Shown piece after piece: positions 35,807 through 57,999 of a stretch of 64,000 bases of DNA; the first letter of the stretch is position 1, and each line of letters begins with the position of its first letter. The notes beneath the pieces were generated by a model that worked only from the letters and a program-made list of their open reading frames with translations, made no database searches and was not told where the DNA came from. Source of the DNA: Streptoverticillium olivoreticuli subsp. olivoreticuli. GTDB lineage: Bacteria > Actinomycetota > Actinomycetes > Streptomycetales > Streptomycetaceae. Both the position numbers and the translations under genes were made by a program. The stretch is from contig NZ_CP031455.1 in the NCBI RefSeq assembly GCF_003391135.1, positions 5,378,001-5,442,000 of the forward strand, written 5' to 3'.

Positions 35807-37005
<1,199 letters not shown>

Positions 37006-40863: not shown

Positions 40864-40871
40864 TGACGGCG

Positions 40872-40908: not shown

Positions 40909-40944
40909 CCCGCAACTGGGGGACAAGCCCCCGGACCCCCTGCC

Positions 40945-41934
40945 TCAGGCGCGCAGCGCCTCGGTCACCTGGTTCACGATCGCCGTCGCCGTGATGCCGT
41001 TGCGTTCCACGAGGTGGCTCTGGCCGCCCGTGCCGCGTGCGAAGTGGTCGCCGAGGGCGACGCGGCGGACGGGGGTGGGGACGCCGAGTTCGGCGATCGT
41101 CTCGGCGGTCGCGGAGCCCAGGCCGCCCGCCGCCCAGTGCTCCTCCACGGTGACGACGGCCTTCGTCGTACGCGCCGCCGTGACCAGCGCCCGGGTGTCC
41201 AGCGGCTTGACCGTGTGGAAGTTGAGCACCGCCGCCTCGATGCCCGCGCCGGCGAGCGTGCCGGCCGCTTCGAGCGCGGCGAGCACGGGGTACGGGCCGG
41301 TGGCCACCAGCGTCACGTCGTCGCCCTCGCGCAGCCGCTGGGCCTCGCCGAGCCGCAGGGGCGGGGCGCCGGCCGGGAGGTCCGGGGTGGCGTTGCGGCC
41401 CAGGCGGATGTAGACGGGGCCCGGGAGTTCCTGGGCCTGCCGGATGAGAGCCTCGGTGGAGGCGGCGTCGGTGGGGACCACGACCGTGAGGTTCGGGAGC
41501 AGCCTGGTGATGGCCAGGTCCTCCAGCGAGTGGTGCGTGGAGCCCAGGTGGCCCGCGGCGAGGCCGCCGTGGGTGGCGGCGATCCGTACGGGCAGGTTGT
41601 TCAGGGCGATGTCCAGCTTCAGGGACTCCAGCGCCCGTGTGGTGGCGAACGTCGCCATCGTGTTGACGAACGGCAGCCGCCCGGCCTTGGCCAGGCCCGC
41701 GGCCACGCCCATCAGGTTCTGCTCGGCGATGCCGAGGTTGACGTAGCGGGCGGAAGTGCCGCCGAAGTCGACGCCGTTGAACAGTCCGGTGTCGCTGTCC
41801 AGGCACACCACCCGCTCGTCGGCGGCGAGGAACTCCACGAGCAGGTCGCGGTAGACCTCGCGGCTGGAGGGGATCGCGGGGGCCGGGGCGGTTTCCGCCG
41901 GGGCCGGGTGGGCTTCGGTCGCCACGGTGGTCAT
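40945..41934 (-). CDS. Transketolase, C-terminal subunit (pyrimidine-binding and C domains)
   Basis: A 329-residue half-transketolase. After a Pro/Ala-rich N terminus it has the Pyr domain with YVNLGIAEQNLMG (catalytic Glu), GLAAGHLGSTHHSLEDLA, and the C-terminal domain. ATG 41934 overlaps the stop of the N-terminal subunit (ATGA), so the two halves are made together. Split transketolases accompany AmCP clusters for azabicyclic amino acids, where they add a two-carbon ketol unit to a LysW-bound glutamate semialdehyde; that role is inferred from context. Confidence 0.9.
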   Translation of the reverse strand: MTTVATEAHPAPAETAPAPAIPSSREVYRDLLVEFLAADERVVCLDSDTGLFNGVDFGGTSARYVNLGIAEQNLMGVAAGLAKAGRLPFVNTMATFATTRALESLKLDIALNNLPVRIAATHGGLAAGHLGSTHHSLEDLAITRLLPNLTVVVPTDAASTEALIRQAQELPGPVYIRLGRNATPDLPAGAPPLRLGEAQRLREGDDVTLVATGPYPVLAALEAAGTLAGAGIEAAVLNFHTVKPLDTRALVTAARTTKAVVTVEEHWAAGGLGSATAETIAELGVPTPVRRVALGDHFARGTGGQSHLVERNGITATAIVNQVTEALRA

Positions 41935-42809
41935 GCCTGTGCCGCCTTCCTGGACTGGGCGCGCAGGATCGCCAGCGCCCGCTTCTTCGGTCGCTCGCCG
42001 AGGCGGGCGTAGTGGCTGCGCGCCTGTCCCTCGATGTAGGGCAGGCCGCGGCCCTTGACCGTCCGCGCGATCAGCACGGTCGGCCGGTCCGCGTCGTACG
42101 GGATGCCGTCGAGCGTGGCGCGGAGCAGGGCGATGTCGTGCCCGTCCACCTCGTGCACGTTCCACCCGAAGCTGTGCCAGCGGTCGGCCAGCGGCTCCAG
42201 GGCGACGGCGTTCTCGGTCGGGCCGGTGATCTGGAGGCTGTTGCGGTCCACGACGGCGACGAGCCGGCCGAGGCCGAGCGAGCCGGCCGCCATCGCGGCC
42301 TCCCAGTTGGAGCCCTCCTGGAGCTCGCCGTCGCCGAGGAGGACGAAGGTGCGCCGGGGAGAGGCGTCGAGCCGGGCCGCGAGGGCGAAGCCGACGCCCA
42401 GCGGCAGCCCGTGCCCGAGGGAGCCGGTGGGCATCTCGACGCCGGGCACGGCCGGGTTGGGGTGCGCGGAGAAGAGGCTCTCCGGCCTGCCGTACGTGGC
42501 CAGGTCCTCGGCGGGGAAGAAGCCGCGCTCCGCCAGGGCGGCGTAGAGGCCGATCGCGCCGTGGCCCTTGCTCAGCAGCAGCACGTCGCGCTCGGGGTCG
42601 TCGGGCGCCGCGGGGTCGATGCGCAGCACCGAGCGGTAGAGCGTCACCAGGATCTCGACGAGGGACATCGAGCCGCCGAGGTGACCTCCCTCCGCGGAGC
42701 CGCACATCTCCACGATCAGCTCGCGGACGCGCAGGGCGTGTTCCTCGGGCGCGAGGTCGCCGGTCCATGCGCTGCCCGCGGGGGAACCGGTGGGGGGAGT
42801 GGCACTCAT
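41931..42809 (-). CDS. Transketolase, N-terminal subunit (TPP-binding domain)
   Basis: A 292-residue half carrying the thiamine-diphosphate site GDGELQEGSNWEA...VDRN, SKGHGAIGLYAALAERG and the HPN-P-GVEMPTGSLGHGL loop. It overlaps lysK by one base (TGATG) and the partner subunit by four. Two-gene transketolases occur in archaea and in secondary metabolism, unlike the single-chain primary enzyme. See the partner subunit for the inferred reaction. Confidence 0.92.
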   Translation of the reverse strand: MSATPPTGSPAGSAWTGDLAPEEHALRVRELIVEMCGSAEGGHLGGSMSLVEILVTLYRSVLRIDPAAPDDPERDVLLLSKGHGAIGLYAALAERGFFPAEDLATYGRPESLFSAHPNPAVPGVEMPTGSLGHGLPLGVGFALAARLDASPRRTFVLLGDGELQEGSNWEAAMAAGSLGLGRLVAVVDRNSLQITGPTENAVALEPLADRWHSFGWNVHEVDGHDIALLRATLDGIPYDADRPTVLIARTVKGRGLPYIEGQARSHYARLGERPKKRALAILRAQSRKAAQA

Positions 42810-43933
42810 CAGCTTTCCTCGGATACGTGCGGGGCGGTGGCCCGTGCCGGGAGGGAGGCGCCGAGCTCACGCAGGGCGGCGGACAGCACCTCGATGCCGC
42901 CGAGGTAGTCGGACAGCACGACGTGCTCGTCGTCCGCGTGGTCGAGCCTGCTGTCGCCGGGGCCGTAGGTGGCCATCGGGACGTCCCAGACCTCGGCCAG
43001 GGTGTTCATGTCGGAGGTCGCCGTCTTCACCTTCATGGACGGCTTGGCGCCCTGCTCCCGGATGCCGGCCGTGAGGGCCCGGACGACCGGGTCCGTACGG
43101 CCCACGCGGCACGCCTCGACGGTGTTGACGACCGTGATCCGGCCCTCGGGCACGGCCTCGTTCAGCCGGTGCACGAGCTTGTGGTGGTCGAAGCCGGGCG
43201 GGATGCGGATGCTGAACTCCGCCTTCGCCGTGGTGATGTCGCCGTTGATCGACACGAGCGTGGGGCCCGGCTGGTCGAAGGAGCCGTGACCCGCGTCCGG
43301 TCCCAGCAGCTCCAGCAGCGCCGACCAGGCGCCCGCGGCCAGCTCCGTCGCCTTGGGCAGCGGGTTGCTGGGGTGGGTCGCCTCGCACTCCACCTCGTAG
43401 AGCAGGTCGAGCTTGCCCTTGTAGCCGAGCACGACGGTCGACCAGCCGCTCGGCTCGCCGATGACGAACGCGTCCGGCCTGGGGTGGGTGCGGCGGATGT
43501 GCATCGCGCCGCGCGACAGCGCCGTCTCCTCCTCCACGGCGCCCACGACCACGACCCGGCCCCGGAAGTCCGTCGCGGTGGCGGCCGCGCAGACCATGGT
43601 GGCCAGCGGGGTCTTGGCGTCCACGGCGCCGCGCCCGTAGAGCCGCCCCTCGGAGGCGTAGACGGGCAGGTCGCCGGTGACGGTGTCCATGTGGCCGAGC
43701 AGCATCACCGTCGGCCCGTCGCCGCGGACGATCTCGCCGACGGCGTTGCCCGCCTCGTCGACCCGGGCGTCGAAGCCGAGCTCCGTCATGCTCTCGGCCA
43801 GGAAGGCGGCGAGCTCCCCCTCCTCGTACGAGGGGGACGGGATCTCCAGCATGCGGCGCAGCATGCCGACCGCGTACGACTCCGTGCACGTGGAGGCGCC
43901 CGCTCGTGGTGTGCGGCTGATCGGCGTGCTCAT
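42809..43933 (-). CDS. lysK: LysK-like M20 hydrolase releasing product from the carrier protein
   Basis: A 374-residue M20 metallohydrolase. Metal-site motifs are GHMDT (H81, D83), GRGAVDAK (D105) and GAVEEET. By length and neighbourhood it is a [LysW]-lysine hydrolase rather than ArgE: it sits in an operon with lysW, X, Y and Z. It would cleave the isopeptide bond to the C-terminal Glu of the carrier and free the finished amino acid. Its ATG overlaps the lysZ stop (ATGA). Confidence 0.85.
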   Translation of the reverse strand: MSTPISRTPRAGASTCTESYAVGMLRRMLEIPSPSYEEGELAAFLAESMTELGFDARVDEAGNAVGEIVRGDGPTVMLLGHMDTVTGDLPVYASEGRLYGRGAVDAKTPLATMVCAAATATDFRGRVVVVGAVEEETALSRGAMHIRRTHPRPDAFVIGEPSGWSTVVLGYKGKLDLLYEVECEATHPSNPLPKATELAAGAWSALLELLGPDAGHGSFDQPGPTLVSINGDITTAKAEFSIRIPPGFDHHKLVHRLNEAVPEGRITVVNTVEACRVGRTDPVVRALTAGIREQGAKPSMKVKTATSDMNTLAEVWDVPMATYGPGDSRLDHADDEHVVLSDYLGGIEVLSAALRELGASLPARATAPHVSEES

Positions 43934-44808
43934 CGGCGTGCCTCTTCCCCGGCCGTCGCGGGCCTGTCGGTCGTGTCCGTCGCCGCCGGATCGTCGGCGA
44001 TCACGATCTCGGTGGCGTGGCCCGCCAGCGCGGCCCGTACGGGGCCGGGCCGGCGGCCGTCGGCTATCAGGACGCGCCGCGCCCCGCCGAGCAGTGCCTC
44101 CCGGGCCGCGATGAGCTTGAGGCCCATGCCGCCGCCGACGTGCGGCGGCGCCCCGGTGGGCGGTACGGCGCAGACCGCCAGCACGGAGCTCTCGTCCGCC
44201 GGGTCCGCGAGGACGCCCGGCGCGCCGGTCAGCAGGACCAGCGTCTGCGCCCGGAGCGCCCCGGCGACGGCCGCGGCGGCGCGGTCGGCGTCGGTGTTCA
44301 CCGGACGGCCGTCCTCCGCGAGGGCGGGCGGGGAGATCACCGGCACCGAACCGGCGTCCAGCAAGGTGTGCAGCAAAGCCGTGTTGACCTCGGTCACGCG
44401 GCCGCTGTGGTCGTCGCGGACCAGCACCTTCCGGCCGTCGACGATCGCGCGGTGCGCGGACTTGCGCCTGGCCCTCAGCAGGCCGCCGTCGAGGCCGGTG
44501 AGCCCGACGGCGGAGACGCCCTTGTCGACGAGGGCGGCGACGAGGCGGGGTTTGGCGAGCCCGGCGAGCGCGAGGTGGACCACTTCCAGGGTCGCGGCGT
44601 CGGTGTGACGGGCGGATACGCCGTCCGGCGAGGTGAGGCGGCGGGTCGGGACGTTCATGCGGTGGGCGAGGTTCTCTATGTCGGCGGAGCCGCCGTGCAC
44701 AAGGGCCATGCGGGAGCCCTCGTGCGTCATTGTCGCTATGTCCTCGCAGATGGCGAGGGGGTCCACGGCTGCGTTGCCGCCGCATTTGACGACGGTGGTG
44801 TGCTGCAT
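43930..44808 (-). CDS. lysZ: LysZ-like carrier-bound acyl kinase
   Basis: A 292-residue amino acid kinase. VVKCGGNAA, LVHGGSADIENLA, NTDADRAAAAVAGAL and the GGGMGLKLIAA segment match the NAGK/LysZ family. It would phosphorylate the side-chain carboxylate of an amino acid held on LysW. In this operon the substrate is most likely LysW-glutamate, since a transketolase follows. The gap to lysY upstream (133 bp) contains a dispersed repeat. Confidence 0.88.
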   Translation of the reverse strand: MQHTTVVKCGGNAAVDPLAICEDIATMTHEGSRMALVHGGSADIENLAHRMNVPTRRLTSPDGVSARHTDAATLEVVHLALAGLAKPRLVAALVDKGVSAVGLTGLDGGLLRARRKSAHRAIVDGRKVLVRDDHSGRVTEVNTALLHTLLDAGSVPVISPPALAEDGRPVNTDADRAAAAVAGALRAQTLVLLTGAPGVLADPADESSVLAVCAVPPTGAPPHVGGGMGLKLIAAREALLGGARRVLIADGRRPGPVRAALAGHATEIVIADDPAATDTTDRPATAGEEARR

Positions 44809-44825
44809 GCTTTTCGGCCTTTCGG

Positions 44826-44940
44826 CTTCTGGGGGTGGCGGGTTCTTTCCCCAGCCCCGCCCCTTCCCGGCTGGATCCGATATGCGGCTCCGCCGCGTGA
44901 GGGGGAAAGCCCCCAGACCCCCGGACGGGCTGGATTCGGC
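44826..44940. repeat. Dispersed intergenic repeat (copy 2) between lysY and lysZ
   Basis: Shares CCCCGCCCCTTCCCGGCTG and TGCGGCTCCGCCGCGTG with copy 1 after topA, and ends in CCGGACGGGCTGGA. Unusual inside an operon: it separates lysWXY from lysZK-tkt and might attenuate or process the message. Confidence 0.6.
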
Positions 44941-44941
44941 G

Positions 44942-45979
44942 TCAGTTCGGGTGCAGGCCCGTGAATTCCAGGCCCAGGGATTCCGGCCAGCCCTGGCGGA
45001 TGTTCAGGCACTGGACCGCGTTGCCCGAGCCGCCCTTCACCAGGTTGTCGAGCGCGCCCACCACCACCGCGCTGCCCGGTTCGTCGCCGACCGAGAAGCC
45101 GACGTCGCAGAAGTTCGACCCGGAGAGGATCTTCGGCTCCGGCAGCCGGTAGAGGCCGCGCTTCTGGGCGACGACGCGTACGAACCGCTCGTCCGCGTAC
45201 GCCTCGCGGTACGCCCGGCGCAGGGCGCGCTCGTCCGTGCCCTCGGTGAGCTGTACGCGGCAGAGCACCTGCACGCCGCGTACGGCCTCCACCCCGGTGG
45301 CGCTCATGGCGACCGGCAGCCCGGTGGACTGGGCGATCTCCGCCTGGTGGCGGTGGCTGTTGGGCGCGAAGATCCGCATGGCGCCGCTGCGTTCGGCGTG
45401 GATGTTGGACGAGCCCGCCGAGATGCCGGAGCCGCTGGAGCCGGTGCGAGCGTCGACCTGGATGCCGCCCGTGAGCAGCCCGGCCTCGCTGAGCGGGCGG
45501 AGCGCGAGGATGCCGGCGGTCGCCATGCAGCCCGGTACGGAGATGCGGTCGCTCTCCCGGATCTCCTCGCGGTGCCACTCGGGGAGGCCCGTGACGAAGG
45601 TGGGGATGAGCTCGGGGGCGGTGTGCGGGGTGCCGTAGTGGCGCTCGTAGACCAGCGGGTCGCGCAGCCGGAAGTCGCCGGAGAGGTCGATGACCTGCTC
45701 GGCGAGCCCGAGGAACTCGGGCATCCGGCCCATGGTCTCCTTGTGCGGCGTGGCCAGGAAGAGGACGTCGAAGCGGCCCTCGGCCTCCGCCAGCCGGTCG
45801 TTGGCGACGAAGGTCAGGTCGGTCGCCCCGCGCAGGTTGGGGTGCGGGCCGTCCACCCGCTTGCCCGCGAAGCGGTTGGAGGTCGCGACGGTCACCTCCA
45901 CGCGGGGGTGGCCGATGAGGAGCCGTAGGAGTTCGCCGCCGATGTATCCGGAGGCTCCGACAACCGCTACTCGCAGCAT
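44942..45979 (-). CDS. lysY: LysY-like carrier-bound acyl-phosphate reductase
   Basis: A 345-residue NADP-dependent reductase of the ArgC/LysY family. It opens VAVVGASGYIGGELLR, and the catalytic Cys151 is in VPGCMATAG. It would reduce the LysW-bound acyl phosphate to the semialdehyde, the acceptor for the transketolase. It overlaps lysX by 13 bp. The operon has lysW and lysX, so I read it as LysY and not as arginine-pathway ArgC. Confidence 0.88.
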   Translation of the reverse strand: MLRVAVVGASGYIGGELLRLLIGHPRVEVTVATSNRFAGKRVDGPHPNLRGATDLTFVANDRLAEAEGRFDVLFLATPHKETMGRMPEFLGLAEQVIDLSGDFRLRDPLVYERHYGTPHTAPELIPTFVTGLPEWHREEIRESDRISVPGCMATAGILALRPLSEAGLLTGGIQVDARTGSSGSGISAGSSNIHAERSGAMRIFAPNSHRHQAEIAQSTGLPVAMSATGVEAVRGVQVLCRVQLTEGTDERALRRAYREAYADERFVRVVAQKRGLYRLPEPKILSGSNFCDVGFSVGDEPGSAVVVGALDNLVKGGSGNAVQCLNIRQGWPESLGLEFTGLHPN

Positions 45980-46845
45980 GATTCAGACCTTGTCATGAGA
46001 TGTTCGACGATCCGGTCGGCCACGTCCACGCGGTCGCCCATGGCCCGCTGGAAGCCCGAGAACTCGACGCCGTGGTTGACCTCCAGGACCACCACCTCGC
46101 CGTCGTCGCTCTCGATCAGGTCGACGCCCGCGATGTCGGCCGCCACGGTCTTCGCGGCCATGACGGCGAGTTCGGTCATCCCGGGCGAGGGAGTGAACGC
46201 CTCCGTGGTCGCGCCGCGCGCCACATTGGTGCGCCACTGGCTGCCACGGCGGTAGGTGGCGCCGAGCACCTCGCCGCCCACGACGACCATGCGGATGTCG
46301 CGGTCGGGCTTGGCGATCAGTTCCTGGACGTAGACGATGTGCGACTGCGGGGCCGGGAGGGCGGCGATGTACTCCATCACCGTCTCGGCCGTCCGCCGGT
46401 CCGGCAGCAGGGTCACCAGGCGGCCCCAGGAGCCCACGAGGGGCTTGACCACGGCGGGGTAGCCGATCTCCTCCAGGGCGTCGAGCGCGGCCTCGGGCGT
46501 GAGGGCGAGCGCGGTGCGCGGAGTGGGCAGGCCGGCCCGGCGCAGGGCCACGGAGGTCTGCCACTTGTCACCGCAGACCTCGGTGGCCGCCGCCGAGTTG
46601 ACCACGATGGCGCCGGCCGCCTCCAGGGCGCGCGCGGCGTACAGGGCACGGGCGTGACCGATCTCGCGGTTGAGCACGATCCGCCGCGGCGGCCGCTGCG
46701 CGTGCAGAAGACTCCACGACGCCCGGCTGTCGACGTACTCGCAGTGGGCGCCCCGTCGTTCGAAGGCGTCGAGAAGCCGCTTCTCATCCGCTCTCATACG
46801 GGATGCGAGCATGACGAAGGGGCCCGGGCGCGTGGAGGAGGTCAC
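45967..46845 (-). CDS. lysX: LysX-like ATP-grasp ligase (carrier-protein loading)
   Basis: A 292-residue ATP-grasp ligase from GTG 46845, whose start overlaps the lysW stop (GTGA). VVKPLVGSWGRLV (ATP-binding loop), VQELIAKPDRDIRMVVVG and the metal-binding VLEVNHGVEFSGF are visible. LysX/ArgX enzymes attach the amino group of an amino acid to the C-terminal Glu of LysW. Specificity is not readable with confidence; glutamate is inferred. Confidence 0.9.
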   Translation of the reverse strand: MTSSTRPGPFVMLASRMRADEKRLLDAFERRGAHCEYVDSRASWSLLHAQRPPRRIVLNREIGHARALYAARALEAAGAIVVNSAAATEVCGDKWQTSVALRRAGLPTPRTALALTPEAALDALEEIGYPAVVKPLVGSWGRLVTLLPDRRTAETVMEYIAALPAPQSHIVYVQELIAKPDRDIRMVVVGGEVLGATYRRGSQWRTNVARGATTEAFTPSPGMTELAVMAAKTVAADIAGVDLIESDDGEVVVLEVNHGVEFSGFQRAMGDRVDVADRIVEHLMTRSESCCE

Positions 46846-47006
46846 TCGCCCCAGTCCTCTTCGATCTCCGGGGCCAGCACGAGCTCCACCGGGTCGACGG
46901 AGATGAGCTCGAGCTCGCTGGAGCAGCCGGCGCACTCCACGATCTCACTCACCCGGGGGTTCTCCATGAGGGCCACGGAACCTTCGCACTCCGGACACTT
47001 CGCCAT
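46842..47006 (-). CDS. lysW: Amino-group carrier protein LysW/AmCP
   Basis: A 54-residue acidic carrier. The N-terminal zinc ribbon is CPEC...CAGC (C4, C7, C25, C28) and the C terminus is EDWGE, the invariant attachment tail whose last Glu carries the substrate. Streptomyces make lysine through diaminopimelate, so a LysW operon marks AmCP secondary metabolism, as established for vazabitide A. It is the first gene of the minus-strand operon, divergent from the sulfotransferase. Confidence 0.95.
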   Translation of the reverse strand: MAKCPECEGSVALMENPRVSEIVECAGCSSELELISVDPVELVLAPEIEEDWGE

Positions 47007-47040
47007 GAAAACTGCTCTCCCATCGCACTGTTGCGGAATC

Positions 47041-47284: not shown

Positions 47285-47330
47285 GAGGCGCCCGTGTGCA
47301 GTATCGGAAGAGTGTGCAAGGAGTGTCATT

Positions 47331-48062
47331 TTGCGGTCCGCTGAAGCCCCAAGAATTCTGGCCCTCTGGAGCGCTCCACGCTGCCGCTCCACCGCATTCT
47401 TCCGCATGATGTCGGAGCGCGGTGATTTCCGGTTGCTGCACGAGCCGTTCTCGTACCTGATGGAATTCGGCTCGGTGGACGCGGCCGGCCGGAAGGTGGC
47501 GGACGAAGCCGGTCTGCTCGCCCGTATACGGGAACTCGCCGCGGACGGCCCGCTTTTCTTCAAGGACACCACCGACGAGCGCTACCCCGGACTGCTCGCG
47601 GACCCGCCGTTCCTGGCGGAGGACGCGCTGCACACGTTCATCATCCGGCACCCGCGCGAGACGATCGCCTCGTACCACGCCATCAACCCCGAGGTGCAGC
47701 TGCACCAGATCGGATTCGAGGCGCAGTACGAGCTCTTCGAGCGCGTCCGGGAGCTGACCGGGACCGTGCCCGCCGTGGTCGACGCCGCGGACCTCGTGGA
47801 GGCGCCGGAGCGGACCGTGCGGGCGTACTGCGCCGCCGCCCGCATCCCGTACCTCCCCGAGGCGCTCCAGTGGCGCAGCGGCAGCCGGGAGGAATGGGCG
47901 CCGACCGAGAAGTGGCACCGGGACGCGAGCGCGAGCAGCGGTTTCGAGAAGAAGGAGCGGGCGGACCGGGTCGACGTGGACGGACACCCCGTCCTGTCGA
48001 AGTACCTGGAACACCACCTACCGTTCTACGAGAAGCTGCGCGCGCACCGGCTGGGTGGCTGA
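47331..48062 (+). CDS. PAPS-dependent sulfotransferase
   Basis: A 243-residue enzyme. I chose TTG 47331 because AAGGAG lies at 47318-47323 and the protein then begins just before the core; the ORF continues to 47160 without support. LWSAPRCRSTAFFRM is the 5'-phosphosulfate loop, and FIIRHPRETIASY is the 3'-phosphate-binding region with Arg and Ser. It would transfer sulfate from PAPS to a hydroxyl. The next three genes make PAPS, strongly supporting the role. In AmCP clusters a sulfate ester serves as leaving group for aziridine closure; that step is inferred. Confidence 0.82.
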   Translation: MRSAEAPRILALWSAPRCRSTAFFRMMSERGDFRLLHEPFSYLMEFGSVDAAGRKVADEAGLLARIRELAADGPLFFKDTTDERYPGLLADPPFLAEDALHTFIIRHPRETIASYHAINPEVQLHQIGFEAQYELFERVRELTGTVPAVVDAADLVEAPERTVRAYCAAARIPYLPEALQWRSGSREEWAPTEKWHRDASASSGFEKKERADRVDVDGHPVLSKYLEHHLPFYEKLRAHRLGG

Positions 48063-48104: not shown

Positions 48105-48683
48105 GTGCGGAAGGTGACAGTGACGCAGTGCACGTGCGACGTGCCGGAGCGGACGGGTGCCACGGTGTGGCTGACGGGTCTGCCGAGTGCCGGCAAGACC
48201 ACGATCGCCAAGGCTCTCGCGGAGCGGCTGCGCGGCGAGGGGCATCGGGTCGAGGTGCTGGACGGTGACGAGATCCGCGAGTTCATCTCCGCGGGCCTCG
48301 GCTTCAGCCGCGCGGACCGGAACACCAATGTGCAGCGCATCGGCCTGATTTCGGAGGTGCTCGCGCGCAACGGCGTGAAGTCGATCGTGCCGGTGATCGC
48401 GCCCTACGCCGATTCCCGGGAAGCGGTGCGCAAGCGCCACGAGGTCTCGGACACGGCCTATCTCGAGGTGCACGTGGCGACTCCGGTCGAGGTGTGCTCG
48501 GAGCGCGACGTGAAGGGGCTGTACTCCATGCAGGCGGCGGGCCGGATCTCGGGTCTCACGGGGGTCGACGACCCCTACGAGGCGCCGGAGTCGCCGGATC
48601 TGCGGATCGAGTCGCACACCCAGACCGTGGCGGAGTCCGCCGCCGCTCTGTACTCGCTGCTCACGGAGAGGGGTCTGGTGTGA
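48105..48683 (+). CDS. cysC: Adenylylsulfate (APS) kinase
   Basis: A 192-residue P-loop kinase that phosphorylates APS to PAPS. Walker A is GLPSAGKTT; DGDEIREF and the GFSRADRNTNVQRIG stretch are CysC signatures. GTG 48105 follows GAGG; GTG 48114 is an alternative. The stop overlaps cysD (GTGA). A kinase making PAPS, with no PAPS reductase nearby, points to sulfation and not cysteine synthesis. Confidence 0.93.
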   Translation: MRKVTVTQCTCDVPERTGATVWLTGLPSAGKTTIAKALAERLRGEGHRVEVLDGDEIREFISAGLGFSRADRNTNVQRIGLISEVLARNGVKSIVPVIAPYADSREAVRKRHEVSDTAYLEVHVATPVEVCSERDVKGLYSMQAAGRISGLTGVDDPYEAPESPDLRIESHTQTVAESAAALYSLLTERGLV

Positions 48684-49627
48684 GTGACACCCGTTCGACG
48701 GCCTTCGCGCCTGTTGCGGACACCGCGGATCAGTACGCGCTGTCGCACCTGGACGTCCTGGAATCCGAAGCGGTGCATATATTCCGTGAGGTGGCGGGCG
48801 AGTTCGAGCGGCCGGTGATCCTGTTCTCCGGCGGCAAGGACTCCATCGTGATGCTGCACCTGGCGCTGAAGGCGTTCGCGCCCGCGCCGGTGCCGTTCAC
48901 GCTGCTGCACGTGGACACCGGGCACAACTTCCCCGAGGTGCTGGAGTACCGCGACCGCACGGTGGCCGAGCACGGACTGCGGCTGCACGTCGCCTCCGTG
49001 CAGGACTACATCGACCGGGGCGTGCTGCGCGAGCGGCCCGACGGCACCCGCAACCCCCTGCAGACGGTCCCGCTCACGGAGGCCATCCAGGAGCACCGCT
49101 TCGACGCGGTGTTCGGCGGCGGGCGGCGCGACGAGGAGAAGGCCCGCGCCAAGGAGCGCGTCTTCTCCCTGCGCGACGAGTTCTCGCAGTGGGACCCGCG
49201 GCGCCAGCGGCCCGAGCTGTGGAACCTCTACAACGGGCGGCACGCTCCCGGCGAGCACGTCCGCGTCTTCCCGCTGTCCAACTGGACCGAGCTGGACGTG
49301 TGGCAGTACATCGCCCGCGAGAAGATCGAACTCCCCGAGATCTACTTCGCCCATGAGCGCGAGGTCTTCGCGCGTAACGGCATGTGGCTGACCGCGGGCG
49401 AGTGGGGCGGCCCCAAGGACGGCGAGCCCGTCGAGGTGCGCCGGGTGCGCTACCGCACGGTGGGCGACATGTCCTGCACCGGTGCCGTCGACTCCGACGC
49501 CACGACGCTCGACGCGGTGATCGTGGAGATAGCGGCCTCCCGGCTCACCGAGCGGGGCGCGACGCGCGCCGACGACAAGATGTCCGAGGCCGCGATGGAA
49601 GACCGCAAGCGCGAGGGGTACTTCTAG
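48680..49627 (+). CDS. cysD: Sulfate adenylyltransferase subunit 2
   Basis: The 315-residue PP-loop subunit of ATP sulfurylase, which makes APS. The ATP site is LFSGGKDSIVML; HVDTGHNFPEV and GGGRRDEEKARAKER follow. The start overlaps cysC and the stop TAG abuts the cysN ATG. Its C terminus EDRKREGYF is typical. Confidence 0.95.
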   Translation: MSDTRSTAFAPVADTADQYALSHLDVLESEAVHIFREVAGEFERPVILFSGGKDSIVMLHLALKAFAPAPVPFTLLHVDTGHNFPEVLEYRDRTVAEHGLRLHVASVQDYIDRGVLRERPDGTRNPLQTVPLTEAIQEHRFDAVFGGGRRDEEKARAKERVFSLRDEFSQWDPRRQRPELWNLYNGRHAPGEHVRVFPLSNWTELDVWQYIAREKIELPEIYFAHEREVFARNGMWLTAGEWGGPKDGEPVEVRRVRYRTVGDMSCTGAVDSDATTLDAVIVEIAASRLTERGATRADDKMSEAAMEDRKREGYF

Positions 49628-50905
49628 ATGACCAGCACCACCGGGCAGCAGGCCACGACCCTGCTGCGTTTCGCGACGGCGGGTTCCGTGGACGACGGCA
49701 AGTCGACTCTGGTCGGCCGGCTGCTGCACGACTCCAAGTCCGTCCTGGCCGACCAGCTCGAGGCCGTCGAGGACGCCTCCCGCCGGCGCGGCCAGGAAAC
49801 ACCCGACCTCGCCCTCCTCACCGACGGGCTGCGGGCGGAGCGTGAGCAGGGCATCACGATCGACGTCGCGTACCGCTACTTCGCCACCCCCCGGCGCCGG
49901 TTCATCCTCGCCGACACCCCCGGCCACGTGCAGTACACCCGCAACATGGTCACCGGCGCCTCCACCGCCGAGCTCGCCGTGGTCCTGGTCGACGCCCGCA
50001 ACGGCGTCGTCGAGCAGACCCGCCGCCACGCCGCCGTCGCCGCCCTCCTGCGCGTCCCCCACGTGGTACTGGCCGTCAACAAGATGGACCTCGCCGACTA
50101 CGCCGAGCCCGTCTTCGCCGCCATCGCCGCCGAGTTCACCTCCTACGCCGCCTCCCTCGGCATCCCCGACGTCACCGCCATCCCCATCTCCGCACTCGCC
50201 GGCGACAACGTCGTCGAACCCTCCGCACACATGGACTGGTACGGCGGCCCCACCGTCCTCGAACACCTCGAGACCGTCCCCACCGGCCACGACCCCTCCA
50301 CCGACCCCGCACGCCTCCCCGTCCAGTACGTGATCCGCCCGCAGTCCGCCGAACACCCCGACTACCGCGGCTACGCCGGCCAGATCGCCTCCGGCGTGCT
50401 CCGCGTCGGCGAACCCGTGACCGTGCTGCCCTCGGGCCGCACCAGCACCATCGCCGGGATCGACGCCCTGGGCCGCGCCACCGACACCGCCTGGGCACCC
50501 CAGTCCGTGACCGTCACCCTCACCGACGACATCGACGTCTCCCGCGGCGACACCATCGCCCCCACCACCGGCGCCCCGGCAGTCACCCAGGACGTCCAGG
50601 CCACCGTCTGCCACGTCGCCGACCGCCCCCTGACCCCCGGCCAGCGCGTCCTGCTCAAGCACACCACCCGCACCGTCAAAGCGGTCGTCAAGGCCATCCC
50701 CTCCCGCCTGACCCTCGACGACCTCTCCCAGCACCCCGACCCCGGACAGCTCACCACCAACGACATCGGCCGCATCACCCTCCGCACCGCCGAACCCCTC
50801 GCCCTCGACACCTACACCGACTCCCGCCACACCGGCTCCTTCCTCCTCATCGACCCCGCCGACGGCACCACCCTCGCCGCCGGCATGGCGGGAACCGCGG
50901 GGTGA
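49628..50905 (+). CDS. cysN: Sulfate adenylyltransferase subunit 1 (GTPase)
   Basis: The 425-residue EF-Tu-like GTPase that drives APS formation by CysD. G1 is GSVDDGKST, G3 DTPGH, and G4 NKMD. The C-terminal beta-barrel domains are complete and there is no fused CysC, consistent with the separate cysC. From about 49900 the codon use becomes extremely C-rich (GCC, ACC, CCC), unlike cysD. Two hairpins follow. Confidence 0.95.
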   Translation: MTSTTGQQATTLLRFATAGSVDDGKSTLVGRLLHDSKSVLADQLEAVEDASRRRGQETPDLALLTDGLRAEREQGITIDVAYRYFATPRRRFILADTPGHVQYTRNMVTGASTAELAVVLVDARNGVVEQTRRHAAVAALLRVPHVVLAVNKMDLADYAEPVFAAIAAEFTSYAASLGIPDVTAIPISALAGDNVVEPSAHMDWYGGPTVLEHLETVPTGHDPSTDPARLPVQYVIRPQSAEHPDYRGYAGQIASGVLRVGEPVTVLPSGRTSTIAGIDALGRATDTAWAPQSVTVTLTDDIDVSRGDTIAPTTGAPAVTQDVQATVCHVADRPLTPGQRVLLKHTTRTVKAVVKAIPSRLTLDDLSQHPDPGQLTTNDIGRITLRTAEPLALDTYTDSRHTGSFLLIDPADGTTLAAGMAGTAG

Positions 50906-51030: not shown

Positions 51031-51415
51031 CGCGGTGCGGCAACTCATGGGAAACCGCCGCCATCCCGGAGATCCGTGTGAAGGCCATCCAACTGGCGGA
51101 ATCCTTGGCAAAACAGCGCAGCCGGATAATTGCCTGAATGGCCCGATGTATATACCCGTTTTCCGCTCCCGGCGGGCCTTTCGGTGAGCTTGGTCACGCC
51201 CTCCACGGACTCCGGACGTCTGGCTCCATGAAGTAGATTGACGAGCGGTGCTGCGGGGGACACCGCGTTTCTGGGTGCTTTGCGGCCTTGTGATAAAAGG
51301 CAGAACGAGTGGTCGGCCGCGTGGTGAGCCAATTCTGTTGCACTTGTTGGCGTACCGCCCTGCGGATGGTCACCGCTTTGCCATGGGATTACGTAACCTG
51401 GGGGTGCGGGGCGCG

Positions 51416-52099
51416 GTGGCGATCAAAGTGGTCATCTGTGATGAGACGCCGATCATTCGAAATGGGCTGAAGACCTTCCTGGAGGCCGCCCAGGACATCG
51501 AGGTCGTCGATGTCTCGGACAGCGCGATGAGTGCCCTGATGCTCATCCGCACGCACCGGCCCGACGTGGTCGTCACCGGCATCAAGTTCCAGGGGATGTC
51601 CGGGATCGAGCTGATCCGCCGGCTCGCCCGGTTCGACGACGGCGACGTGCCGGCCCCCCGCTCCGTGGTGTTCAGCATGGACTGCGCCGACGACGTGATC
51701 ACCGAGGTGCTGCACGCCGGGGCCAACGGGGTGCTGATCGGCGACGCCAAGCGCGAGGAGGTCGCCAGCGCCGTGCGGACCGTGGCGCGCGGCGGCACCG
51801 CCCTGGCCTCCGAGGTGGCGGGCCGCCTCGTCGAGTGGTTCCGCGGCCGCGAACTGCGGCCGGCCGCCGAACTGCGGCCCTCGGTCGGCTCGCTCACCTC
51901 GCGCGAGCGCCAGGTGCTCACGCTGATCGGCCGGGGGATGTCGATCGACGAGGTGGCGACGGAGCTGTGCATCGGGGTCAGCACGATCCGCACCCACCTG
52001 CACCGGCTGCGCAACAAGCTCGACCTGAAGGACCGGGCCCAGCTCGTCTCCTTCGCCTACCGGGCCGGTCTGATGCAGAGCCCGGCCGAGGCGTGTTGA
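51416..52099 (+). CDS. NarL/LuxR-type response regulator with atypical receiver
   Basis: A 227-residue regulator with an N-terminal receiver-like domain and a C-terminal LuxR HTH (LTSRERQVLTLIGRGMSID, then GVSTIRTHLHRLRNKL). In the receiver the phosphoacceptor position is Gly55 (PDVVVTG where families read PDVVLMD), and the usual Lys is Gly (VLIGDA), so it cannot be phosphorylated in the standard way. I chose GTG 51416. ATG 51383 is in frame and would add 11 residues including a TTA Leu codon; neither start has a good ribosome site. It is a probable pathway regulator, as no sensor kinase is adjacent. Confidence 0.83.
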   Translation: MAIKVVICDETPIIRNGLKTFLEAAQDIEVVDVSDSAMSALMLIRTHRPDVVVTGIKFQGMSGIELIRRLARFDDGDVPAPRSVVFSMDCADDVITEVLHAGANGVLIGDAKREEVASAVRTVARGGTALASEVAGRLVEWFRGRELRPAAELRPSVGSLTSRERQVLTLIGRGMSIDEVATELCIGVSTIRTHLHRLRNKLDLKDRAQLVSFAYRAGLMQSPAEAC

Positions 52100-52252: not shown

Positions 52253-52450
52253 ATGGCTGAGGCTGCCGAAGCGGCGCTGGATTCTTGGACAATTGTCGTC
52301 AACCACGAGGACCAGCATTCGATCTGGCCCGCCGGACGCGAACTTCCGCCGGGCTGGAACGAAATAGGTTTCACCGGTGACCGGCAGGCGTGTCTGGACC
52401 GGATATCCACCGTGTGGAAGGACCTGCGGCCGCTGAGCCTGCGTAGCTGA
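52253..52450 (+). CDS. MbtH-like NRPS accessory protein
   Basis: A 65-residue protein with the family signature NHEDQHSIWP...LPPGWNEIGF and a late WKDLRP. MbtH proteins bind adenylation domains and help them fold and work. AGAGGG precedes ATG 52253. It lies just before the A-PCP gene, its likely partner. The gap upstream (153 bp) may carry the operon promoter. Confidence 0.95.
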   Translation: MAEAAEAALDSWTIVVNHEDQHSIWPAGRELPPGWNEIGFTGDRQACLDRISTVWKDLRPLSLRS

Positions 52451-52487: not shown

Positions 52488-54284
52488 ATGACAACGACCG
52501 TTGAATCGGTGCACCCGGCCGAATCCGTGCACGCGGCCTTCGAGCGGTGCGCGGCGGCCACCCCGGACGCGGTGGCGATCTCCTCGGGGGACACCCGGGT
52601 CGGCTACGCGGAGCTCGACGCGCGGGCCAACCGGCTCGCCCACCACCTGCGCGCCCTGGGCGTCGGCGTGGAGAGCCCGGTCGGCATCTGCGCGGAGCGG
52701 TCCGTGGAGACCGTGGTCGCCCTTCTCGCGATCCTCAAGGCGGGCGGCCACTACGTCGCGCTCGACCCGCGCCAGCCGCGCGAGCGCCACGCGACCCTGG
52801 TGAAGGAGGCGGGCCCGGACCTGATCCTCACTCAGGAACGCCTCCTTCCGCAGGTGTCCGGGCTCGCCCGGACCGTGGTCCTCGACGACCCCGAGCTCGA
52901 CCGCACCGTGCTCTCCGGGCTCCCCGCCACCGCCCTCGGCACAGAGGTGCGCCCCGGCCACGCCGCCTACGTCGCGTACACCTCCGGCTCGACCGGCGCG
53001 CCCAAGGGCGCGTGCGTCCCGCACCGCGCCGTGCTCCGCCTCGTCCAGCGCAACAACTTCCTGACGGCCGGGCCCGACGACGCCTTCCTGATGTTCGCGC
53101 CGCTCGCCTTCGACGCGTCGACGCTGGAGATCTGGGCGCCCCTGCTCAGCGGTGCCCGGCTCGCGATCCTCCCGCCCGGGGAGCCCTCCCTCGACGAGCT
53201 CGCCGACGCGGTCGTCCAGGAGGGCGTCACCGTGCTGTGGCTGACCGCCGGGCTCTTCCACCAGATGGCCGAGGGGCCCGTCGCCCGGCTGACCACGGTC
53301 CGGCAGCTGCTGGCGGGCGGGGACGTCCTCTCGCCCCACCACATCAACGCGACGTTCGCCGCGCTGCCCGGCGTCCGGGTCGTCAACGGCTACGGACCCA
53401 CCGAGAACACCACGTTCACCTGCTGCCACATCATGGAAGAGCCGGTCGGCGACGGGCCCGTGCCCATCGGTCTGCCCGTCACCGGCACCACCGTCCATGT
53501 GCTCGACGAGCGGCTGCGGGAGGTCCCCGACGGCGCCACCGGTGAGCTCTACGCCGGTGGGGCCGGGGTGGCCCGGGGCTATGTGGGGCGCCCCGACCTG
53601 ACCGCCGACCGCTTCCTGCCCGACCCGTACGCCGCCGGGCCCGGCGCGCGGATGTACCGCACCGGCGACCTCGTCCGCCGCCGCGCCGACGGCGTGGTGG
53701 AGTTCCTCGGCCGGATCGACAACCAGGTGAAGGTGCGAGGCTTCCGCATCGAACCCGGCGAGATCGAGGCGGCGTTGGTGGGCCGGCCGGGCGTCAAGGA
53801 CGCCTGCGTCGTGGTCCACACCCACCCGGAGTCCGGCAAGCGCCTGGTCGCCTTCTTCGTCGCCGACGACAGCGTCCTGCCCGCCGGGCTGCGCGAGGCC
53901 GTCGCCGCCGCCCTGCCGCCCTACATGGTCCCCTCGCTCCTCGCCCGCGTCGACGCCCTGCCGCTGACCCGCAACGGCAAGGTCGACCGGGCCGCCCTGG
54001 AGGCGCGCGAGATCCGCGAGCGGCCGGAGACCAACGCCGACTTCCGGGCGCCGGGCACCGCGCTGGAGCGCGAACTCGCCGCGCTCTGGGCCGGGCTGAT
54101 GGGCCTGGACGAGGTCGGCGTCGACGACGACTTCTTCGAGCTGGGCGGCCACTCGCTGATGGTCACCCGGATCGTCGCCCACGTCGCGGAGCGGCACGGC
54201 GTGGAGCTCCGCCCCCGCGACCTCTACCTGAGCTCGACCGTGGCCGAACTCGCCGAGGCCATCGAGGGGTCGGCGGCGGGCTGA
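52488..54284 (+). CDS. NRPS adenylation-PCP didomain, valine-like specificity
   Basis: 598 residues: A domain about 15-505 (YTSGSTGAPKG, NGYGPTE, YRTGDL, NGKVDR), then a PCP with phosphopantetheine Ser556 in LGGHSL. There is no C or TE domain. My hand-read ten-residue code is D-A-L-W-L-G-G-T-F-K, very close to the classic valine code D-A-F-W-I-G-G-T-F-K, so valine or a similar branched amino acid is likely. It may load the amino acid for tailoring or hand-off to the C-A-PCP enzyme downstream. Confidence 0.92.
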   Translation: MTTTVESVHPAESVHAAFERCAAATPDAVAISSGDTRVGYAELDARANRLAHHLRALGVGVESPVGICAERSVETVVALLAILKAGGHYVALDPRQPRERHATLVKEAGPDLILTQERLLPQVSGLARTVVLDDPELDRTVLSGLPATALGTEVRPGHAAYVAYTSGSTGAPKGACVPHRAVLRLVQRNNFLTAGPDDAFLMFAPLAFDASTLEIWAPLLSGARLAILPPGEPSLDELADAVVQEGVTVLWLTAGLFHQMAEGPVARLTTVRQLLAGGDVLSPHHINATFAALPGVRVVNGYGPTENTTFTCCHIMEEPVGDGPVPIGLPVTGTTVHVLDERLREVPDGATGELYAGGAGVARGYVGRPDLTADRFLPDPYAAGPGARMYRTGDLVRRRADGVVEFLGRIDNQVKVRGFRIEPGEIEAALVGRPGVKDACVVVHTHPESGKRLVAFFVADDSVLPAGLREAVAAALPPYMVPSLLARVDALPLTRNGKVDRAALEAREIRERPETNADFRAPGTALERELAALWAGLMGLDEVGVDDDFFELGGHSLMVTRIVAHVAERHGVELRPRDLYLSSTVAELAEAIEGSAAG

Positions 54285-54361: not shown

Positions 54362-55138
54362 ATGACTTCCGACCGACGTCCCTCGAAATGGCTGCTGCGC
54401 CGCCCGAAGGACGACAGTCCCGTGCGCGTCTTCTGCTTCCCCTACGCGGGTGTCGGCGCGTCGATGTACGCCAAGTGGCCGCGGACCATCGGGCCGGCCG
54501 AGGTGTGCCTCGTCCAGCTGCCGGGCCGGGAGAACCGGCTGCGGGAGCCGCACTTCGGCACGTACGAGGAGCTGACCGAAGGGCTGCTGGAGGGCCTCGA
54601 ACCCCACCTGGACCGCCCGTTCGCCTTCTTCGGGCACTGCAGCGGTGCCCTGCCCGCCTTCGCAGCGGCGGCCGAACTGGCCCGCCGGGGGCAGCGGGTC
54701 CCGGACCGGCTCTTCCTCTCCTCGCAGGTGGCCCCGCACGAGGGCCCGTACGGCCGGCTGCTCGGCCTCCGGCACGACGAGCTCGCCGACGAGCTCATCG
54801 CGCTGACCCGGGCCATGGGCGGCGAACCCCACCCGGACCTCGTCGACCTCGGCGTGGACGTCCTCTCCGCCGACATCGAGGCCAACCGGCGCTACCGGCT
54901 GGACGCGCCGCTGCGGCTGCCCACCACCCTCACCACCATCGGCTGGCGCGAGGACACCGTCATCCCCGCGGAGATGACGGCCGGCTGGCGGGAGTACGCC
55001 CCCGACGGCGACACCCGCGAAGTCCTCCTGGACGGCGGCCACTACGCCTTCCTGGACGCACCGGAGGCGCTCGTCGCCGAGCTGGCCGCCGACCTGGCCG
55101 CCCTCGCCCCCTCGAAGACGGAGGCCGACCGGACATGA
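54362..55138 (+). CDS. Type II thioesterase with Cys nucleophile
   Basis: A 258-residue alpha/beta hydrolase of the GrsT/TEII family (CFPYAGVGASMY, LPGRENRL). The nucleophile elbow reads GHCSG, so residue 93 is Cys where nearly all relatives have Ser; D198 and H227 complete the triad. TEIIs clear misloaded acyl groups from carrier domains; a Cys variant could favour transfer or a different release. RBS GAGGTGAAGG precedes the ATG. Its stop overlaps the M20 gene (ATGA). Confidence 0.9.
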   Translation: MTSDRRPSKWLLRRPKDDSPVRVFCFPYAGVGASMYAKWPRTIGPAEVCLVQLPGRENRLREPHFGTYEELTEGLLEGLEPHLDRPFAFFGHCSGALPAFAAAAELARRGQRVPDRLFLSSQVAPHEGPYGRLLGLRHDELADELIALTRAMGGEPHPDLVDLGVDVLSADIEANRRYRLDAPLRLPTTLTTIGWREDTVIPAEMTAGWREYAPDGDTREVLLDGGHYAFLDAPEALVAELAADLAALAPSKTEADRT

Positions 55139-56463
55139 GCACCCTGGAGAACCCCGGCGCCGTCGCGCTCACCCAGCGGCTGATCCGCTTCGACACCACC
55201 AACCCGCCCGGCGACGAGGCCGCCTGCGTGCGGTACGTGGCGGAACTGCTCCGTGCCGCCGGGCTGGAGACGCGCCTGCTCGGCCGCGAACCCGCACGGC
55301 CCAACCTGATCGCCCGGCTGCCCGGCCGCGGCGAGGCGCCCCCGCTGCTGCTGCACGCCCACGTCGACGTGGTACCCACCGAGAACCAGCGCTGGAGCCG
55401 CCCGCCGTTCGGCGGCGAGCTCGTGGACGGCGAGGTGTGGGGGCGCGGCGCGGTCGACATGAAGGGCCAGCTGGCCATGATGCTCGACGCCGTGCTGCGG
55501 CTGCGGGCCACGGGCACCCCGCCCGCCGGTGACGTCCTCCTCGCCGTCGTCTGCGACGAGGAGGCGGGCAGCGCGGCGGGCGCGAAGTTCCTCGTGAACG
55601 AGCACCCCGAGGTGTTCGCCGGGGTCCGTTACGCGATCGGCGAGGACGGCGGCGCGAGCCTGGGCCTCGGCGGTCACGTGCGCTTCCACCCGATCGTGGT
55701 CGCCGAGAAGCGGGCCGTGTGGGTGCGTGCCGTGCTGCGCGGCATCGCCGGGCACGCCTCCCGGGTCACCGGCAGCGCGGGCGCCGCGTACAAGCTGACC
55801 CGGCTGCTCGGCGCCATCGACGGCGGCGGGCTCGGCACCGTGCTGACCCCGGCCGTCGACACCATGCTCGCCGAGCTGGCCCGCGTCCTGCCGGAGCGCG
55901 AGGGCCGCCGGATCGCGGCCTTCCGCGCCGACCCGGCCGACACCTCCGCCCTCGACGGCTTCGACGAGCGCGACATCCGCTACCTGAGCTCGATCGTGCA
56001 GCACACCGTCAACGCCACGGTGATCCACGGCGGCACCAAGACCAATGTGCTGCCGAGCGAGATCTCCGTGGAGCTCGACGGGCGGGTGCTGCCCGGCGAC
56101 TTCGGCACCCCCGGCTTCCTCGCCGAACTGCGCGCGAAGTCCGGTGTCGACATGGACCTGGAGGTCCTCGTCGAGGGCGAGCAGATGCCGCAGCCGAAGC
56201 TCGGGGCGTTCTACGAGCGGCTCGCCGGGGTGCTGCGCGAGCAGGACCCGGGCGGCGTGCCGATCCCCATGGTGACCACCGCGTCCACCGACGCGCGGCT
56301 CTTCCCGCAGCTGGGCATCGAGACCTACGGCTGGCTGCCGCTGCGCCAGTCCACCGGCACGTCGTACCGCGACATGCTGCACGTCGCGGACGAGCGCATC
56401 GCCGTCGAGGACCTGGAGTTCGGCGCCCACTGCTTCCACGAACTGCTGCGCGACCATGAGTGA
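55135..56463 (+). CDS. M20 family metallopeptidase/deacylase
   Basis: A 442-residue M20 dipeptidase/ArgE-like enzyme. HAHVDVVP, GRGAVDMKG and VCDEEAGS are the metal-site motifs, with the lid domain in the middle. It is clearly distinct from the LysK-like copy at 42.8 kb, so this cluster has two M20 hydrolases; this one may remove a protecting acyl or peptide group late in the pathway. It overlaps TEII by four bases and the GNAT by eight. Confidence 0.88.
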   Translation: MSTLENPGAVALTQRLIRFDTTNPPGDEAACVRYVAELLRAAGLETRLLGREPARPNLIARLPGRGEAPPLLLHAHVDVVPTENQRWSRPPFGGELVDGEVWGRGAVDMKGQLAMMLDAVLRLRATGTPPAGDVLLAVVCDEEAGSAAGAKFLVNEHPEVFAGVRYAIGEDGGASLGLGGHVRFHPIVVAEKRAVWVRAVLRGIAGHASRVTGSAGAAYKLTRLLGAIDGGGLGTVLTPAVDTMLAELARVLPEREGRRIAAFRADPADTSALDGFDERDIRYLSSIVQHTVNATVIHGGTKTNVLPSEISVELDGRVLPGDFGTPGFLAELRAKSGVDMDLEVLVEGEQMPQPKLGAFYERLAGVLREQDPGGVPIPMVTTASTDARLFPQLGIETYGWLPLRQSTGTSYRDMLHVADERIAVEDLEFGAHCFHELLRDHE

Positions 56464-57409: not shown

Positions 57410-57999
57410 GAACACAGACCGCACACACGACGCCCACGCGCCTGGACCTGACGGCGTTCGCCAACAACACCGGCATCACCACCGAGGACCGGCTGTCCGA
57501 CGGCGCGTTCAACATCTGGGGCAACACCTTCCCGGCCGAGGAGCTGCCCGCGGGCGGCGAGATCACCGTCGACGGCATCCCCTTCCGCTTCCCGGCCCCG
57601 GCCGCGGGCGCGCCGGACAACGTCCGCTGCGCCGGTCAGCTCCTGGAGCTGCCCGCCGGGCGCTACGACTGGATCCACGTCCTGGCCGCCGCCGAGCGGC
57701 GCACCGAGGACTTCGTCCAACTGCACTACACGGACGGGTCCGTGGACCCGGAGTGGCTGCGGATCTCCGACTTCTGGCCGCAGACCGGGGCCCGCTTCGG
57801 GGAGAGCGCCGCCTTCTCCTGCACGCGGCTGCACTACCCCCGGCACGTCCAGCGCTCCATGGGGCCGACCATCTGGCGGCAGCGCGTACCCGTGACCCGG
57901 CAGCGGGAGCTGACGGCGCTCACGCTGCCCGACAACCCCGCGATCCATGTGTTCGCGATGACCCTCGCGCCCACGACACCGCCGGAGGCAGCGGAGTGA
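57406..57999 (+). CDS. Unassigned protein, first of a coupled pair (candidate aziridine-forming subunit)
   Basis: A 197-residue protein whose best start is TTG 57406, overlapping the GNAT stop, with GGAG ten bases before. No signal peptide, membrane segment or known domain. Aromatic and beta-rich segments (GAFNIWGNTFPAEEL, GRYDWIHVLAAAE, HYTDGSVDPEWLRISDFW) suggest a beta-sandwich, carbohydrate-binding-like fold. It is coupled (GTGA) to the next gene. In vazabitide and azinomycin a two-subunit enzyme of novel fold (Vzb10/11, AziU3/U2) closes the aziridine by sulfate elimination; this pair is a positional candidate, with homology unverified. Confidence 0.6.
   Translation: MRTQTAHTTPTRLDLTAFANNTGITTEDRLSDGAFNIWGNTFPAEELPAGGEITVDGIPFRFPAPAAGAPDNVRCAGQLLELPAGRYDWIHVLAAAERRTEDFVQLHYTDGSVDPEWLRISDFWPQTGARFGESAAFSCTRLHYPRHVQRSMGPTIWRQRVPVTRQRELTALTLPDNPAIHVFAMTLAPTTPPEAAE

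Follow-up and report, generated by a model that had tools for sequence, protein, structure and literature searches.

A candidate gene cluster for a 1-azabicyclo[3.1.0]hexane dipeptide, with an amino-group carrier protein operon, in Streptoverticillium olivoreticuli

The carrier-protein operon and the genes divergent from it

The stretch of DNA analyzed here, referred to as the window, comprises 64,000 nucleotides of the Streptoverticillium olivoreticuli subsp. olivoreticuli genome (contig NZ_CP031455.1, positions 5,378,001 to 5,442,000), and window positions are used throughout unless genome positions are given. Between 40945 and 47006 on its minus strand lie seven intact genes in the order lysW-lysX-lysY-lysZ-lysK-tktN-tktC, each with a family match (the ranges from the family scans are a few residues short of the final gene limits), and this amino-group carrier protein operon, together with the plus-strand genes that diverge from it, is the subject of the present work. 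The lysW gene (46842..47006) encodes a 54-residue carrier protein with the C-terminus EEDWGE, which scores 54.0 bits against TIGR01206 (cut-off 53.2), is over the cut-off of PF21344, and is the one LysW match in the 8.81-Mb genome. It is followed by the ATP-grasp LysW-glutamate ligase LysX (45967..46845; TIGR00768 over cut-off, PDB matches 3vpd and 1uc8), the ArgC-type semialdehyde-forming reductase LysY (44942..45979; 343.7 bits against TIGR01850 of the ArgC family, over cut-off), the LysW-linked glutamate kinase LysZ (43930..44808; NF010659 and TIGR00761 over cut-off), and a LysK-like M20 hydrolase (42809..43933; TIGR01902 over cut-off) that probably frees the product from the LysW carrier. 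The last two genes encode the N-terminal half (tktN, 41931..42809; PF00456) and the C-terminal half (tktC, 40945..41934; PF02779 and PF02780) of a transketolase. The hallmarks of a LysW pathway, namely a carrier ending in EDWGE, the LysX ligase, the LysZ kinase, and the LysY reductase, are therefore all present in one operon.

An initial annotation of this DNA had described a tight minus-strand operon of LysW, LysX, LysY, LysZ, LysK, and a split transketolase, with overlaps of 1-13 bp and a single gap, and that description holds: the overlaps are 4 bp (lysW/lysX), 13 bp (lysX/lysY), 4 bp (lysZ/lysK), 1 bp (lysK/tktN), and 4 bp (tktN/tktC), and the sole gap is the 133 bp between lysY and lysZ. 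No terminator-like sites were found within 40600-47400. The same seven genes, divergent from a sulfotransferase gene and cysC, are found again in six named loci of Streptomyces (L007, L008, L013, L015, L018, and L020), and because the gene order is repeated in this way we do not attribute the arrangement to chance.

The divergent plus-strand genes include a pair, aziU2 (57409..57999) and aziU3 (57996..59021), whose products match the solved azinomycin proteins (PDB 8gs1/7wuw) with E values of 1.5e-48 and 4.3e-47, respectively. By this homology the pair is a putative aziridine synthase, with AziU3 as the synthase of the BtrH_N family (PF14399) and AziU2 as its partner subunit. Alignments of 41 rows each, 40 of them different, contain 33 columns in AziU2 and 45 in AziU3 that are at least 97% identical, and those of AziU3 include C18, H122, and D143, which could together make up a Cys-His-Asp set, the family being BtrH_N/C39-like.

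AziU2 and AziU3 occur together in 43 stretches and, with four duplicates removed, the 39 distinct stretches serve as the reference for the counts that follow. Next to lysW lies a gene for a sulfotransferase (47325..48062, start codon uncertain; PF19798) that is presumably dependent on 3'-phosphoadenosine 5'-phosphosulfate (PAPS); a sulfotransferase gene adjoins lysW in seven relatives and is matched in 31/39 stretches. Then come the adenosine 5'-phosphosulfate kinase CysC (48105..48683; PF01583), matched in 10 of the 39, the sulfate adenylyltransferase small subunit CysD (48680..49627), assigned from its PF01507 domain and its position between cysC and cysN, and the GTPase subunit CysN (49628..50905; PF00009 and PF22594). 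By these family matches, a sulfotransferase and a PAPS supply are present as in azabicyclo[3.1.0]hexane clusters. A DegT/DnrJ-type aminotransferase (59021..60415; PF01041), which probably catalyzes an amination at C6, directly follows AziU3 and is matched in 35 of the 39 stretches.

Two nonribosomal peptide synthetase (NRPS) proteins complete the core. The first is a didomain of adenylation (A) and peptidyl carrier protein (PCP) domains (52488..54284; PF00501, PF13193, and PF00550), and the second, which begins with a condensation (C) domain and ends with a thioesterase (TE) domain, is a C-A-PCP-TE protein (PF00668, PF00501, PF00550, and PF00975) that starts at 60788 and runs past the end of the window to 64876, as read in the longer stretch L002. 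Also beyond the window are two acyl-CoA-dehydrogenase-like genes (ACAD1, 64934-66088, and ACAD2, 66260-67390). The remaining plus-strand genes encode a LuxR-type response regulator (51404..52099; PF00072 and PF00196), an MbtH-like NRPS chaperone (52253..52450; PF03621), a type II thioesterase (54362..55138; PF00975), a second M20 hydrolase (55135..56463; PF01546) that perhaps removes a protecting acyl group, and a GNAT acetyltransferase (56456..57409; PF00583) that perhaps serves in amino protection or self-resistance. Directly after the dehydrogenase pair is an AzlC/AzlD pair of the branched-chain amino acid transporter family (67418-68602, L002:8419-9600), which could export, or protect against, a valine-containing product; AzlC/AzlD had no matches in the relatives' stretches examined, and the contig of the nearest relative stops short of that point.

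Proposed pathway and product

We consider it very likely that the operon forms one half, the carrier-protein part, of a cluster for a dipeptide whose warhead is a 1-azabicyclo[3.1.0]hexane, a fused aziridine. The cluster would extend over ~26-28 kb from 40945 to 67390 or 68602. The gene identities are assigned from their sequences, and the product that we infer from them is a valyl-azabicyclic dipeptide. In the azinomycin route, as outlined in the review PMC9570651, extension by a two-part transketolase and amination give 2,6-diamino-5,7-dihydroxyheptanoate (DADH), and sulfation and displacement then give the aziridine; an amino-group carrier alternative, from work on vazabitide, is mentioned there as well. 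AziU3/U2 is functionally an aziridine synthase according to PMC12559475. The window holds a homolog for each of these reviewed steps, that is, extension, amination, sulfation, displacement, and the aziridine synthase.

In the mechanism that we propose, LysX would attach the amino group of glutamate to the C-terminal Glu of LysW, LysZ would phosphorylate the side-chain carboxylate of the bound glutamate, and LysY would reduce the phosphorylated side chain to the semialdehyde. TktN/TktC would then attach a two-carbon unit, DegT would aminate C6 to give LysW-bound DADH, and LysK would release DADH from the carrier. With PAPS supplied by CysD, CysN, and CysC, the sulfotransferase would sulfate the hydroxyl adjacent to the C6 amine, and the amine would displace the sulfate by the action of AziU3/AziU2, closing the aziridine; the GNAT and second M20 enzymes may add, and later remove, an N-acyl group. 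We model these eight steps on homologous enzymes that act in vazabitide and azinomycin biosynthesis. The last two, together with the loading order and the exact product, are our own suggestion. The C-A-PCP-TE protein would load the aziridine amino acid and the dehydrogenase-like pair would desaturate Cα/Cβ on the PCP, after which the aziridine nitrogen would add to the desaturated residue to form the pyrrolidine ring. Finally, valine would come from the A-PCP protein, and coupling of the two residues and release of the dipeptide would fall to the C and TE domains. The role given to the dehydrogenase pair is based on the chemistry and on the co-occurrence of ACAD1 with a particular adenylation code.

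That code was read by alignment to the A domains of the window, which covered nine of ten standard specificity positions; the final K was assumed. The A-PCP protein gives DALWLGGTF(K), two conservative changes away from the textbook code for valine, DAFWIGGTFK, and its specificity looks valine-like. The C-A-PCP-TE protein gives DVFDFGGVA(K), and we know of no adenylation code that it matches. The form DVFDFGGV(A/T) is present in 22 of the 39 AziU2/U3 stretches, 21 of which also have ACAD1 and 18 ACAD2. Among 29 lysX/lysW loci classed as lacking AziU2/U3 with regard to the stretch itself (they include L187, on the L006 contig, primary-type loci, and L188 and L189 from genomes with AziU3), any code could be read in only 10, some from poor alignments. 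One of them, L189, carries DVFDFGGVA and comes from a genome (G002) with AziU2/U3 on another contig; another, L015, carries DVFDWGGVA. The association between the DVFDFGGV code and AziU is thus suggestive but falls short of proof.

As a control, three azinomycin-like loci (L131, L133, and L132), whose AziU3 proteins are 94, 86, and 79% identical to the solved fragment, all gave DFWSVGMVH when read with the C-A-PCP-TE query in longer stretches (L198, L199, and L200), although with the A-PCP query the final residue of L198 comes out as V. DFWSVGMVH is similar to the textbook Thr code. The reading therefore behaves as it should, since PMC9570651 names threonine as the source of the final unit of azinomycin B. 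Because the other A domain of the cluster looks valine-type, DVFDFGGV(A/T) may be the best candidate for the code of the azabicyclic, or DADH-derived, amino acid.

At a threshold of E 1e-20 or better, AziU3 is present in 20 of 295 Streptomyces genomes, counting that of the window, and all 20 have LysW, which occurs in 43 of the 295 (41 over cut-off). In a phylum-wide draw, two of 396 genomes have AziU3, the window genome and one other, and both have LysW. A LysX search of named genomes gave 49 loci, including two archaeal and two partial Bacteroidales matches, and AziU2/U3 was also found in named loci of Herbidospora, Micromonospora, Catellatospora, and Sphaerisporangium. The nearest cluster is in genome G102, where the identities are 83% for ACAD1, 79% for DegT, 76% for AziU3, 74% for the C-A-PCP-TE protein, and 71% for AziU2, with a GNAT fragment (73% over 33 residues) and an ACAD2 fragment cut by contig ends. 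A second G102 contig carries LysW (78%), LysX (80%), LysY (86%), LysZ (80%), the sulfotransferase (73%), and CysC (76%). A plasmid of Streptomyces sp. NBC_01237 encodes a LysX that is 70% identical to that of the window, with tktN/tktC and DegT, and AziU is unmatched in the 28.8 kb examined. In three loci of Thermomonospora and Actinomadura (L029, L033, and L046), LysW and the transketolase halves occur with a distant LysK (36-37%), and AziU, the sulfotransferase, and DegT are all unmatched; these LysW clusters possibly serve another product class.

Several observations weigh against the proposed pathway. LysX scores 260.8 against TIGR02144, slightly below the cut-off of 275.6, and LysK scores 348.7 against NF003367, slightly below 363. 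Among solved structures the sulfotransferase is without a close relative, its best match being CurM with an E value of 0.031, and the aziridine synthase proteins are only ~36% (AziU3) and 49% (AziU2) identical to the solved azinomycin proteins. In G102, the ACAD2 match is merely 52% over a 131-residue piece at a contig end, and lysK, the transketolase, cysD/N, MbtH, and the A-PCP protein were unseen on the contigs examined; within one set of stretches compared, MbtH matches were found in azinomycin-like loci only. The genome's two full matches to AlkZ-type DNA glycosylases are ~380 kb and 1.2 Mb away, and no gene for AlkZ-type self-resistance was found in the cluster or beside it, although PMC9040887 places such genes in five ficellomycin/vazabitide-like clusters. 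The DVFDFGGV code is not seen in 17 of the 39 AziU2/U3 stretches, of which five have other codes (L118, L119, L120, L129, and L130) and 12 have none in the stretch, three of the latter being the azinomycin-like loci with the Thr-like code in longer stretches. Since so many stretches are without it, several different products probably come from AziU2/U3 clusters, and only a subset of them is marked by the code. Two of the five (L119:1915 and L120:1651) have the codes DVLQCGLIV and DVLHCGLID with ACAD1 unmatched in the stretch, and their product is possibly a different azabicycle.

The initial annotation had placed a DADH-type building block at the end of the pathway. The two-part transketolase in the operon and the pyridoxal phosphate-dependent aminotransferase DegT at 59021-60415 are parts of a DADH-type pathway and fit such a building block, but not its place as the end point, as the sulfotransferase, AziU2/U3, and NRPS genes appear to carry it further. 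That the pathway stops at DADH, or at a non-aziridine derivative, with the neighboring NRPS genes using DADH directly, is in our view improbable. Such a design would resemble seven loci (L009, L012, L016, L017, L021, L024, and L037) that have lysW through tktC and DegT, with the sulfotransferase and AziU unseen in the stretch; in the window, however, the sulfotransferase, cysCDN, aziU2, and aziU3 genes are intact and contiguous with the other cluster genes. The aziridine-forming pathway that we prefer would turn a half-described operon into a complete-looking aziridine-warhead cluster of a lineage distant from that of azinomycin (AziU3, 36%). The combination of the DVFDFGGV(A/T) code, AziU2/U3, and the dehydrogenase pair is suggested as a marker for further azabicyclic (DNA-alkylating) dipeptides and as a possible handle on how the second ring closes.

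The left flank and the separation from primary metabolism

To the left of tktC, at 33615-40863, is a cassette of futalosine-pathway genes that encodes a LuxR-type regulator, mqnE, a ferredoxin (fdx, named by eye), mqnA, mqnC, an exporter of the major facilitator superfamily (MFS), and an O-methyltransferase, the part from mqnE to the methyltransferase spanning 34601-40863. Its mqnE, mqnA, and mqnC are second copies: at 4.73-4.75 Mb the genome also has one MqnA-like gene and the other genes of mqnE and mqnC type. The VitK2_biosynth family has a third match, at 5.76 Mb, which is taken as mqnD. Of the 295 genomes, 7 others encode a close relative of the O-methyltransferase, and we looked at six of them. 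One of these six, G255, has the whole cassette with the LuxR-type regulator, in flanking genes that look unrelated by eye. Four other genomes (L143, L144, L145, and L146) have the O-methyltransferase and MFS exporter genes side by side (72-80% identical), with one TAG stop in the reading frame of L146 and with mqn genes unseen in the stretches examined (that of L144 spans only 9 kb). In L147 and L148 a second mqnE-fdx-mqnA set (with mqnC too in L147) has a thioesterase-like gene between, an arrangement unlike that of the window.

The cassette is probably a separate small cluster for an O-methylated product of the futalosine pathway. Were it instead part of the same pathway, an O-methylated dihydroxynaphthoate would cap the valyl-azabicycle to give an azinomycin-like hybrid, and the outcome would be an azinomycin-like DNA cross-linker with a naphthoate drawn from menaquinone biosynthesis rather than from a polyketide synthase. 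The duplication of mqnE, mqnA, and mqnC would fit this, as would the related genes gonM1-gonM4 and an accompanying ferredoxin gene, which PMC4763440 links to the naphthoquinone unit of PM100117/118, and the joining of a methoxy-naphthoate, a valine-derived unit, and an azabicycle in azinomycin, as summarized in PMC9570651. We nevertheless judge it very improbable and rejected it as our principal view of the left flank because the nearest azabicycle cluster, G102, has a single fdx match (in an assembly that is 95% complete, in 1420 contigs), mqnE, fdx, mqnA, and mqnC are matched in none of the 49 LysX loci (flanks of up to 10 kb), and in G255 the cassette stands alone, with azabicycle genes unmatched in the 20 kb examined, no AziU3 match, and a sole LysW-like match below cut-off. 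In addition, neither A domain has a code of the known aryl-acid type, and the cassette and the azabicycle genes converge tail to tail.

The azabicycle genes can also be set apart from primary metabolism. The same genome has a separate argC (genome positions 2,609,834-2,610,853) and dapF (6,903,519-6,904,349), the two arg/dap genes searched for, and an ArgB-like protein near this argC is 35% identical to the LysZ of the window. In a LysX tree of 65 rows, the window protein groups with Streptomyces loci L006, L007, and L008 (support 100/97), and four non-actinomycete rows that we labeled primary (Deinococcus, Thermomicrobium, and two archaea) form their own group (98/88). Loci with AziU are not a single clade in this tree, six changes being needed, and one of them, L130, adjoins the non-actinomycete group with modest support (93/84). 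The LysZ tree is weaker evidence, as it splits the rows labeled primary and has several long branches. Enzymes of the LysX, LysY, and LysZ families do serve lysine or arginine in other organisms, and on a Deinococcus plasmid a homocitrate synthase gene accompanies lysW, lysX, an argC-type gene, and a kinase gene, but a second arginine or lysine route is hardly credible here and was rejected because the genome carries argC and dapF at other sites, LysX clusters separately from the Deinococcus and archaeal rows, and the transketolase halves lie within the operon. The secondary metabolism by the logic of vazabitide that had been suggested initially, with LysX phylogeny as the check, is thereby supported: argC and dapF are present, and LysX stands apart from the Deinococcus, Thermomicrobium, and archaeal proteins rather than in a primary clade of a strain that lacks its normal arg or DAP (diaminopimelate) genes.

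Comparison with known systems

The predicted chemistry and the gene set are of the known azabicyclo[3.1.0]hexane kind represented by azinomycin, vazabitide, and ficellomycin, and the cluster is not a new type of system. The likeness to azinomycin B (PDB 7wuw, 7wux, and 8gs1) is in AziU2/AziU3, the sulfotransferase, the two-part transketolase, and the LysW-type genes, and the azinomycin-like loci L131 and L190, which are from one genome, have cysCDN and ACAD-like genes too. The window differs in that no polyketide synthase is found among the genes scanned and in that its C-A domain code is DVFDFGGVA where azinomycin-like loci have a Thr-like one; this code and the identities of 36% (AziU3) and 49% (AziU2) rule out that it is the azinomycin cluster itself. 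LysW-type clusters without AziU in the stretch, which we take to be perhaps s56-p1-like, share lysW, lysX, lysY, lysZ, lysK, tktN, tktC, and DegT with the window and differ in that the sulfotransferase and AziU2/U3 are unseen in the stretches examined. The vazabitide A cluster of Hasebe et al. (2016) reportedly uses LysW-carried glutamate, LysX/Y/Z, a transketolase, an aminotransferase, and NRPS proteins to make an azabicyclic product, and the window is like it in these kinds of genes and in the predicted kind of product, a likeness of type rather than one established gene by gene. The product of the window may be vazabitide A, an analog of it, or a new compound. Ficellomycin, as described in PMC6804068, contains an azabicyclohexane ring system, and the same ring system is what we predict, from genes alone, for the product of the cluster described here.

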